From Chryseobacterium sp. SORGH_AS_0447 (lineage in GTDB: Bacteria > Bacteroidota > Bacteroidia > Flavobacteriales > Weeksellaceae): DNA of 64,000 nt. The position numbers and the translations under genes are program-made. The stretch covers positions 2,350,501 through 2,414,500 of the forward strand of contig NZ_JAUTAR010000001.1 in NCBI RefSeq assembly GCF_030818695.1, given 5' to 3'. Shown here one piece after another: positions 15,005 to 17,710 of the stretch (its first letter is position 1; each line of letters opens with the position of its first letter). The notes beneath the pieces were generated by a model. That model was not told where the DNA came from, did no database searches, and saw only the letters and a program-made list of their open reading frames with translations.

Positions 15005-16096
15005 ATGAAATGTGGAATCGTAGGCTTACCGAATGTAGGTAAATCAACTCTTTTTAACTGTCTGAGCAACGCCAAAGCCCAGTCGGCCAACTATCCTTTC
15101 TGTACCATCGAGCCGAATCTCGGAACGGTTTCCGTACCGGATCACCGGTTGTTTGAACTGGAGAAAATAGTAAAACCTGAAAGAGTTCTGCCAGCGGTAG
15201 TGGAAATCGTAGACATTGCAGGTCTTGTAAAAGGGGCCAGCAAAGGAGAAGGTTTGGGAAATCAGTTCCTTGCCAATATCCGGGAGTGTGAGGCAATCAT
15301 CCACGTTTTAAGATGTTTTGATAATGGAAATATCGTTCACGTAGAAGGTTCGGTAGATCCTTTGAGAGATAAGGAGATTATTGATATCGAGCTTCAGCTG
15401 AAAGACCTTGAAACGGTTGGGAAAGCTGTAGAAAAGGCTAAGAAATTCATCAAATCAGGAAAGAAAGATGATATCCTGGTGTATGAAACCCTTCAAAGTC
15501 TTGAAAAATTCTTGGAAGACGGTAAAAATGCAAGGGAATTCGCTACTGACGATGCTACGAAATCAATCATCAGCGATGTTCAGTTATTGACGAATAAGCC
15601 GGTGTTATATGTTTGTAATGTTGATGAAAATTCCATTAAAAACGGTAACGAATGGATTGCTAAAATCGAAGAAATGGCTAAAAATGAAGGAGCTGAAGTC
15701 GTTGTGCTTGCCGCTCAGATTGAAGCTGATATCAACGAACTGGAAACTTTCGAAGAAAGAGAAATTTTCCTTGATGAACTGGGACTTACTGAACCGGGTG
15801 TCAACCGTCTGATCAGAAAAGCATACGATCTTCTGAAACTTCAGACGTATTTTACTGCCGGAGTGAAAGAAGTAAGAGCATGGACGATCGGCCAGGGATG
15901 GACGGCTCCTCAGGCTGCCGGTGTTATCCATACCGATTTTGAGAAAGGTTTTATCCGTGCAGAAGTTATCAAGTATGACGATTATGTAAACTACGGTTCT
16001 GAAGTAAAAGTAAAAGAAGCCGGAAAACTTTCGGTAGAAGGAAAAGAATATATCGTGAAGGACGGCGATATCATGCACTTCAGATTCAACGTATAA
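15005..16096 (+). CDS. ychF: Redox-regulated ATPase/GTPase YchF
   Basis: A 363-residue Obg-family P-loop protein, the bacterial OLA1 homologue, which binds ribosomes and prefers ATP in studied members. G1 is GLPNVGKST (residues 7-15), with NYPFCTIEPNLG as switch I and DIAGLVKGASKGEGLGNQFL as G3/switch II. The usual G4 NKxD is replaced by YVCNVDE, which is the family norm and fits ATP preference. The C-terminal TGS domain (from about residue 280) contains FTAGVKEVRAWTI and ends KDGDIMHFRFNV. Length and all motifs are canonical. It lies alone between the ferritin terminator and its own terminator. Confidence 0.97.
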   Translation: MKCGIVGLPNVGKSTLFNCLSNAKAQSANYPFCTIEPNLGTVSVPDHRLFELEKIVKPERVLPAVVEIVDIAGLVKGASKGEGLGNQFLANIRECEAIIHVLRCFDNGNIVHVEGSVDPLRDKEIIDIELQLKDLETVGKAVEKAKKFIKSGKKDDILVYETLQSLEKFLEDGKNAREFATDDATKSIISDVQLLTNKPVLYVCNVDENSIKNGNEWIAKIEEMAKNEGAEVVVLAAQIEADINELETFEEREIFLDELGLTEPGVNRLIRKAYDLLKLQTYFTAGVKEVRAWTIGQGWTAPQAAGVIHTDFEKGFIRAEVIKYDDYVNYGSEVKVKEAGKLSVEGKEYIVKDGDIMHFRFNV

Positions 16097-16123
16097 GAAG
16101 TATTAAAGTTAGTTATATAAAAA

Positions 16124-16157
16124 AACGCTTCGGAATTTGATTTCCGGAGCGTTTTTT
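16124..16157 (+). terminator. Rho-independent terminator of ychF
   Basis: AACGCTTCGGAA pairs with TTTCCGGAGCGTT with minor mismatch, followed by T residues. Confidence 0.88.
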
Positions 16158-16205
16158 GTCTAAAATTCATCGATTGATGATTTAAGTATTTATTATATGA
16201 ATATA

Positions 16206-16391
16206 TTATTGAGGTCTACACTGTCTTTGTGCACAGGCGTTTGAAATTGTAATACAGCCATATTCATTTAATGGCGGGCATCCATCTACCGTAGGACAGC
16301 TTCCTCCCAGACAATCTGCTAATCCGCCTGTAATAGAGCGTAATTGTTTTTTGTTCAGTTTCTTTCCGTTGATTAAGTTTTGATTTTTCAT
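16206..16391 (-). CDS. Cysteine-rich GG-leader peptide (bacteriocin-like), copy 2
   Basis: A 61-residue peptide: a 23-residue leader ending ITGG and a 38-residue core with six Cys. The leader (NLINGKKLNKKQLRSITGG) is the double-glycine type I associate with Chryseobacterium bacteriocin-like or RiPP precursors. Cys spacing is C-x4-C-x5-C-x7-C-x6-C-x4-C, identical in the neighbouring copy, while many residues between differ. Inferred fate: cleavage after GG by a C39-type exporter, then three disulfides or enzymatic modification. No exporter, peptidase or modifying enzyme is seen within the window. It lies 35 bases after copy 1 on the same strand, so the pair is probably cotranscribed. A toxin role is not shown; a signalling or metal-binding peptide is possible. 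Confidence 0.78.
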   Translation of the reverse strand: MKNQNLINGKKLNKKQLRSITGGLADCLGGSCPTVDGCPPLNEYGCITISNACAQRQCRPQ

Positions 16392-16426
16392 GTGGTAAAT
16401 TTTAATTAGTAAAATACTGTAATTAA

Positions 16427-16612
16427 CTATTGTGGTTTACATTCCTTTTGTGCACAGACATTTGAAATCGTGATGCAACCATATTCGTTTAATATCGGGC
16501 ATCCACCTGGTGTAGGGCAATTACTTTCTAAACAGTTTAAAAGCCCGCCTGTAATAAAGCGCAATTGTTTTTTGTTCAGTTTCTTCCCATTGATTAGATT
16601 TTGATTTTTCAT
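16427..16612 (-). CDS. Cysteine-rich GG-leader peptide (bacteriocin-like), copy 1
   Basis: A 61-residue paralogue of the peptide at 16206: the leader differs at one residue of 23 (LRFITGG instead of LRSITGG). The core begins LLNCLESNCPTPGGC and shares the central CPxLNEYGCITISNxCAQ block and the six-Cys spacing. Substitutions concentrate in the first third of the core and at the C-terminus (KECKPQ versus RQCRPQ), as expected for two related mature products. It is the promoter-proximal gene of the pair and diverges from the AraC-type regulator gene whose promoter lies about 125 bases away. No terminator or clear TAnnTTTG was identified for it. Confidence 0.78.
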   Translation of the reverse strand: MKNQNLINGKKLNKKQLRFITGGLLNCLESNCPTPGGCPILNEYGCITISNVCAQKECKPQ

Positions 16613-16736
16613 AATGAATACTGTTTTAATTTGATTGTCACTAATTTATGAAATAAACAGATATTATATCACTTTGCTTTGAAAAAAAATAAAAAATTTT
16701 TATTTCAGAATGTTTATCGTGAAAATTTTTATTTCT

Positions 16737-16744
16737 TACATTTG
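16737..16744 (+). promoter_or_regulatory. Minus-7 element of the AraC-family gene
   Basis: TACATTTG, 15 bases before the ATG at 16760, in the space shared with the divergent peptide genes. Confidence 0.55.
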
Positions 16745-16759
16745 AATTTTACAAATCCC

Positions 16760-17710
16760 ATGATGCAAAAGACAGCCCATACAACCTACACTTCATTAGA
16801 TGATTTTTACCGCGAAATGACCGCTAAGCTCGGTATGGATATAGAATCTGTTTTTCCGAAAGGACTGCATAAAGATATAGGGCATTTTAATGTCTTTGAT
16901 ATAGCACAAACAATTGAGAAAGTAAAAGCCACGGCAGAAATGCCCTACAACAGAAGGAAATATTACAAGATTAGCCTGATCCGTGGAAGAAACAGGGCTG
17001 AATACGCCGATAAGGTCATTCAGATAAAGAAGAATGCTTTGTTATTTGCCACACCAAGGGTTCCCTATCATTGGATCCCGGAAGATCCCGACCAATCGGG
17101 GAGTTTCTGCGTTTTTACCGAAGATTTTTTCATTAAAGATAAATCGCATACCACTCTGGAAGACCTTCCGATTTTTCAGCCGGGAAATATTCCCCTGTTT
17201 GAAATAGATGATGAACTGGCAGACGAAATTGAACTTTTATACGGTAAGATAAAAAACGAGATCAATTCGGATTATATTTTTAAGTATGACCTGATCCGTA
17301 ATTATGTGCTGGAATTGATCCATTACGGACAGAAACTACAGCCGGCTTCGAAGTTATCAACCTCCCAGGATGCCTCAATGAGGGTAGTGTCTTTATTTAT
17401 AGAATTGCTGGAAAGGCAGTTTCCTATCGAATCGTCCAACCAGAGGCTGCAATTGAAAACAGCAAAAGATTATGCCGACAGGCTTGCCGTTCATGTAAAT
17501 TACCTGAATAAAAAACTCAAGGAAAGTACCGGAAAGACGACCACTGAGATTATTGCTGAAAGAATGATCCAGGAAGCGAAGATCCTGCTGAAACAGACAA
17601 AATGGAATGTTTCGGAGATCGCTTATGCTTTAGGCTTTGAGGAGATTGCCCATTTTTCTAATTTTTTTAAAAAGAAAACGTCGATGGCGCCTCTGGAATT
17701 TCGTTCGTGA
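16760..17710 (+). CDS. AraC-family transcriptional regulator
   Basis: A 316-residue regulator: an N-terminal cupin-like sensor region (residues about 1-180) and a C-terminal AraC/XylS double helix-turn-helix (last 100 residues). The signature is visible in LAVHVNYLNKKLKESTGKTTTEII, ILLKQTKWNVSEIAYALGFE and FSNFFKKKTSMAPLEFR. The start at 16760 (or ATG 16763) follows a minus-7 element; the frame extends to 16679 but the extra 27 residues overlap the promoter. The next gene, an SDR oxidoreductase 77 bases downstream on the same strand, is the usual kind of AraC target. The divergent peptide genes are a second possible target. Confidence 0.88.
   Translation: MMQKTAHTTYTSLDDFYREMTAKLGMDIESVFPKGLHKDIGHFNVFDIAQTIEKVKATAEMPYNRRKYYKISLIRGRNRAEYADKVIQIKKNALLFATPRVPYHWIPEDPDQSGSFCVFTEDFFIKDKSHTTLEDLPIFQPGNIPLFEIDDELADEIELLYGKIKNEINSDYIFKYDLIRNYVLELIHYGQKLQPASKLSTSQDASMRVVSLFIELLERQFPIESSNQRLQLKTAKDYADRLAVHVNYLNKKLKESTGKTTTEIIAERMIQEAKILLKQTKWNVSEIAYALGFEEIAHFSNFFKKKTSMAPLEFRS

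Follow-up and report, generated by a model that had tools for sequence, protein, structure and literature searches.

Where, if anywhere, does the machinery reside that would mature a pair of small cysteine-rich precursors with double-glycine (GG) leaders whose neighborhood offers no exporter or modifying enzyme, and does the regulator gene beside them belong to the same functional unit? These questions arise from two short genes of Chryseobacterium sp. SORGH_AS_0447 that lie in a stretch of 64,000 nucleotides (hereafter the window; G000:C1:2350501-2414500) of a 4,374,394-base genome assembled as a single contig. The features of the locus are as follows:

16427..16612, minus strand: first peptide gene of the pair, 61 aa; leader 16544-16612
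16206..16391, minus strand: second peptide gene, 61 aa; leader 16323-16391
16760..17710, plus strand: AraC-type regulator, the divergent neighbor (Pfam HTH_18, E 1.5e-18)
15005..16096, plus strand: ychF, a redox-regulated ATPase, on the other flank (TIGR00092, above cut-off)
16641..16672, minus strand: promoter-like element, GTGATATA then TAnnTTnG, 29-60 nt before the first ATG
16120..16158, unstranded: terminator-like inverted repeat that includes a T-run, in the interval from ychF to the peptides

Both 61-residue frames are as the original prediction described them, namely two tandem minus-strand genes, each specifying a 23-residue GG leader followed by a 38-residue core with six cysteines. 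They are separated by only 35 nt on one strand, and for that reason are likely to be co-transcribed. The predicted leader identity at 22 of 23 residues is exact, the sole difference across residues 1-23 being S19F (7 of 69 bases differ), and the cores differ at 12 of 38 residues and 33 of 114 bases. Across the nine 61-residue members of the subtype with the cysteine spacing x4,x5,x7,x6,x4 (the two window peptides and seven from other loci), pN/pS is 0.06 for the leader and 0.23 for the core, with pS near saturation. The core value indicates that the cores are constrained by purifying rather than diversifying selection; hence, the claimed core divergence stands as a description of the pair but not as a sign of diversification. 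Relatives of the second gene reach 95% identity in a scan of genome contigs, and we regard it as virtually certain that the two are real genes under selection. The opposite reading, that they are decayed or silent and yield no product, is scarcely credible against the low pN/pS, the frames that stay open in relatives and the conservation of the promoter-like element described below. As for structure, AlphaFold2 gave no usable fold (mean pLDDT 51.5 for the full length and 55.9 for the core), and a profile search of solved structures recovered no relative, the best of three matches having an E-value of 1.2. The calculated average masses of the window cores with three disulfides are about 3949.4 and 4048.6 Da.

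The contig scan recovered related peptides at 46 loci in other records, 45 from Chryseobacterium, including two uncultured ones, and one from a Weeksellaceae MAG; a protein search with the peptide gave 19 matches with E no higher than 1. These loci carry between one and nine family peptides each, 140 in all, of which 74 have four cysteines, 54 six and 12 eight, with no odd number among them. The collection was made with a search expression that needed at least three cysteines per peptide and fixed the leader positions -12 and -7, so that leader counts over the 140 are not independent; four peptides of another leader type, each with four cysteines by reading, were omitted. Within the cores, the element C-x6-C-x4-C recurs in 140 of 140. 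The full x4,x5,x7,x6,x4 spacing is shared by both window peptides, as claimed, but is fixed only in the one subtype (9 of the 54 six-cysteine relatives) and not family-wide. Ten of the 12 eight-cysteine members (L064:6651-6902, L075:6648-6905, L085:6192-6446 and similar) resemble two tandem four-cysteine units in one precursor, and the remaining two cores have an extra C-x4-C-x2-C tail. Together with about 30 leader peptides in the source genome itself, these relatives bear out the view that the pair belongs to a larger set of GG-leader cysteine peptides.

The predicted dearth of export genes near the pair extends to its relatives: C39-ABC, HlyD and VKOR-fusion genes are found at none of the 46 family loci (mostly about 12 kb in extent, with 3.5 kb for L044 and 8.8 kb for L054), and the one C39 match of the source genome falls outside the window. 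This match, the only one for PF03412 in the whole genome at E up to 0.01 (G000:C1:830340-830705), lies about 1.54 Mb from the pair and belongs to a 730-aa exporter in which a C39 domain is joined to ABC membrane and ATPase domains. Its locus (L089), hereafter the hub, also encodes a 432-aa HlyD protein, a 514-aa VKOR-thioredoxin fusion and a 363-aa redoxin-like protein, alongside seven GG-type leader cysteine peptides at 828-832 kb, with one more at 834.9 kb. The clustering of the genome's single C39 match with such peptides and with a probable disulfide-forming fusion is what the earlier suggestion of a shared remote machinery would lead one to expect. The fusion (L089:11886-13430, minus strand; G000:C1:831888-833429) begins with 121 residues that score 15.9 bits against PF03412 (cut-off 22; E 0.012), and a profile comparison of this N-terminal domain with the exporter C39 domain gave an E-value of 1.7e-4, with a probability of only 50 over 73 columns of shallow profiles. 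Cysteine is found in none of 21 aligned N-terminal domains of the fusion, as against a DCGPTC motif in 15 of 15 exporter C39 domains. The N-terminal domain may be a leader-binding module that resembles C39 without its cysteine, a more tenuous assignment than that of the exporter.

Both window leaders have leucine at -12 and -7, isoleucine at -4 and GG at -2/-1. According to a study of a C39 protease, the leader residues at -4, -7 and -12 fit a hydrophobic groove of the C39 domain, and the protease accepts diverse cores (PMC6363468). The search for further leader copies that had been proposed as a check was productive: the model leader_Chryseo (NF047798) has 37 matches genome-wide at E up to 1, 25 of them over the cut-off, although some of the weakest sit in long frames and are chance matches. 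Reading of 30 leader loci, the second window gene among them, gave 20 peptides with six cysteines, seven with four, two with eight and one with five. This lone odd-numbered peptide (L024, G000:C1:290030-290083) has GA as its cleavage site. Setting the window gene aside, 24 of the 29 other leaders are hydrophobic at -12, -7 and -4, and five have no hydrophobic residue at -7; 20 or 21 of the 29 end in GG (21 have G at -1, one of these after A), and the others end in GA, GS or GQ. The window leaders themselves stand at the margin of this model, the second gene (16206-16391) scoring 15.5-16.8 bits against a cut-off of 23.5 and the first (16427-16612) giving no match. When leader_Chryseo was compared with the six-cysteine family alignment, 46 of 48 members matched at E up to 1, the best at 1.7e-4.

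The relationship between family and hub was then considered across 246 genomes drawn from the same bacterial family, 99 of them of the genus. At an E-value limit of 1e-4, 84 of the 246 have peptide-family hits, namely 80 of the 99 genus genomes and four of another genus (E 3.1e-10 to 4.2e-9). All 84 have a C39 match (E up to 1e-10), and all 84 have the VKOR fusion (E up to 1e-30). C39 is found in 149 of the 246 genomes and is hence common without the family too. The fusion is present in 12 of the 19 genus genomes without family hits (Fisher p 3.4e-6, phylogeny ignored), so that the hub is not specific to this peptide family; all seven genus genomes without the fusion fall among these 19. In ten of the 80 genus hit genomes every hit is weak (5.6e-7 to 4.7e-5); counting these ten as no-hit genomes puts the fusion in 70 of 70 hit genomes and 22 of 29 no-hit genomes (p 1.0e-4, again with phylogeny ignored). 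C39 and fusion lie less than 5 kb apart in at least 82 of 92 genus genomes. Among the 70 genus genomes whose family hits are strong, a count by eye gave exactly one C39 match in 16, and thus no second C39 exporter was found in those 16.

Upstream of the peptides, the promoter-like element at 16641..16672 has what we take to be a Bacteroidetes-type -33/-7 arrangement. The pattern GTGA...TAnnTTnG recurs about 60 nt before the ATG in 25 of 37 regions between araC and the first peptide, the window included, whereas 100 shuffles gave 0.03 on average and never more than 1 of 37; the 37 exclude 10 of the 47 regions, those with lengths of 260 nt or more. Since the pattern was derived from the same alignment and the sequences are related, its recurrence speaks for conservation rather than function. 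A sigma-70 promoter scan showed no excess (three found, shuffle mean 4.0). On the araC strand, all 37 regions have TAnnTTTG no more than 60 nt from araC (16737-16744, plus strand, in the window). At the other end, the terminator-like repeat includes one minus-strand stem (16131-16146; shuffle mean 0.3).

Taken together, sequence, conservation, synteny and co-occurrence within one genus suggest that the pair probably encodes precursors of secreted, disulfide-bonded mini-peptides that are handled by the remote hub. In the mechanism we propose, a promoter in the gap between araC and the peptides would drive both genes as one transcript, and the 23-residue leader would carry the C39 recognition register, which the only C39-ABC exporter of the genome would recognize in trans. 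The exporter would cut after GG and export the 38-residue core with its HlyD partner, and the neighboring VKOR-thioredoxin fusion would close the cysteines into three disulfides; its N-terminal domain might, more conjecturally, hold the same leaders for oxidation. In this way, about 30 scattered peptides, with even cysteine numbers, would share one hub. Among the parts of this proposal, processing and export of the pair by the remote C39 hub is very likely, and the presence of three disulfides in the mature peptides is likely.

The original prediction had drawn attention to the AraC gene diverging from the pair, and one could suppose that AraC controls the peptides and forms with them an inducible defense or signaling cassette. 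In its favor, araC lies divergently about 150 nt from the pair and is present at all 46 family loci, where the matched peptide is invariably flanked by AraC plus SDR at one end and by YchF at the opposite end (in L043, from Chryseobacterium sp. SN22, AraC and SDR are 95% identical to the window proteins and YchF 99%). The ychF and SDR flanks are, however, just as constant. Moreover, araC stays by ychF, adjacent or nearly so, at 13 of 13 sites without a family peptide; ten of these sites belong to genus genomes that gave no family hit, and three to genus genomes that gave weak hits alone (G043, G098 and G187). In the other direction, G197 has a four-cysteine family peptide (L147:4979-5140, plus strand) between aminotransferase and ychF genes, an interval in which araC and SDR were not found. 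Because the junction occurs without peptides and a peptide without araC, we view the peptides as an island that a fixed junction may or may not contain, and AraC as a neighbor; the AraC link is thus unsupported, and control of the pair by AraC improbable. By eye count, 109 of 118 genus genomes, ten without family hits among them, have an almost full-length AraC match at 76% identity or higher. Most peptides (130 of 140) lie on the ychF side of araC; the other 10, spread over eight loci that include L056 (L056:2483-3188), lie beyond it. The junction, with or without peptides, also accommodates a gene for a probable lipoprotein of 355 aa with DxDxDG-like repeats (L141:1062-2129, minus strand), which is found in the araC-ychF gap at 8 of the 13 peptide-free sites, one match being partial.

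Two further alternatives concern the product. One holds that the precursors are modified by a remote enzyme (an MNIO, lanthipeptide synthetase, radical SAM or ATP-grasp protein), with any disulfides being incidental. It draws on a weak resemblance of the leader to PF14406 (16.2 bits, cut-off 25), a family discussed together with ATP-grasp loci having SPASM enzymes (PMC8939145), and on the MNIO ChrH being known from Chryseobacterium (PMC12636315). Yet the search for MNIO-type enzymes proposed at the outset came back empty, this genome yielding nothing for PF05114 with E up to 0.001 while the same search matched 2 of 14 control genomes. SPASM radical SAM enzymes also have no match in this genome, whereas a LanB-type dehydratase (PF04738) matched neither this genome nor any control genome, a result that hence does not argue for its absence. 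The even cysteine numbers and the probable disulfide-forming fusion at the hub instead favor disulfides, and modification by a remote enzyme is quite improbable. The other alternative accepts the same secretion and differs on purpose, making the product a signal or a public good, such as a protease inhibitor, metal binder or surface peptide, instead of an antibacterial. In line with it are the purifying selection on the cores, their neutral to acidic character, the retention of the peptides at one chromosomal site and the want of an immunity-type gene recognized on reading the genes beside the pair. This last point is weakened in that bacteroidetocin regions reportedly have no obvious immunity genes either (PMC6671954). 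Further, some 30 differing cores in one genome and one to nine copies per locus suit competition better than a single signal, and no receptor gene is seen at the locus. We consider a signal, public-good or other extracellular role possible; antibacterial, bacteriocin-like activity is plausible, if somewhat short of an even call. The mean net charge of the 140 cores is -0.97, which makes a simple cationic membrane-lytic peptide unlikely. Two specific candidates found no support: a cationic antimicrobial, as the cores are neutral to acidic, and a class IIa bacteriocin, as the YGNGVxC motif is absent from both window cores by direct reading.

Returning to secretion through the remote hub, the nearest published analogs appear to be the bacteroidetocins, the proposed class IIf bacteriocins, for which PMC6671954 describes small GG-leader cysteine peptides in Bacteroidetes with an ABC transporter bearing a double-glycine peptidase domain, a thiol oxidoreductase thought to form the disulfides and a five-TM protein encoded in their regions. 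They differ from the window peptides in having leaders of 15-16 aa rather than 23, in the 42-aa mature forms with four cysteines of bacteroidetocins A and B as against 38-aa cores with six, and in a net charge of +2 for the Bo/Bt bacteroidetocin versus the negative mean of the family cores. Furthermore, their exporter, and mostly the oxidoreductase too, adjoins the peptide gene, unlike the exporter-free loci reported here. Many graspetide precursors have GG leaders too, and chryseoviridins are found in Chryseobacterium; what defines graspetides is a locus-encoded ATP-grasp ligase, of which none is seen beside the window pair, and C39 processing in trans is already published for them (PMC8939145). 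PF14406 Bacteroid_pep is weakly similar over the leader of the window peptides, at 16.2 and 12 bits against a gathering cut-off of 25, and this genome has no SPASM match to go with it.

The prochlorosins offer a parallel of organization, with many scattered precursors that combine a conserved leader with a diverse core and share one promiscuous enzyme. The shared step there is a lanthipeptide synthetase, whereas the one proposed here is C39 export and disulfide formation. The window peptides are of an ordinary precursor kind, the GG-leader cysteine peptide, in an unusual arrangement of conserved orphan islands and one hub; in the literature, no description of the peptide family, the remote hub or a VKOR-C39 export fusion was seen among the matches listed, with most subscription journals outside coverage. 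More speculatively, the pair could exemplify a general Chryseobacterium secretion route for disulfide mini-peptides, in which one C39-ABC exporter and a VKOR-thioredoxin oxidase with a dead-C39 leader reader would couple recognition to disulfide formation for about 30 largely unlinked clients per genome, defined only by leader and even cysteine number. If so, searches that require an exporter beside the precursor would overlook many such Chryseobacterium peptides, and the even-cysteine rule combined with the leader register would find them. A dead-C39 domain on an oxidase would further represent a way for a Gram-negative bacterium to direct disulfide formation to chosen secreted peptides.

Among curated models, NF047798 leader_Chryseo, annotated as a 'bacteriocin-like protein', comes closest in kind, with a GG leader and the same hydrophobic register as the window leaders; the latter have a longer N-terminal part and stay below its curated cut-off of 23.5 bits. 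A peptide with a different GG-type leader, six cysteines and GA as its cleavage site is also encoded near the junction in G116, across ychF from it (L138:2319-2510, plus strand).
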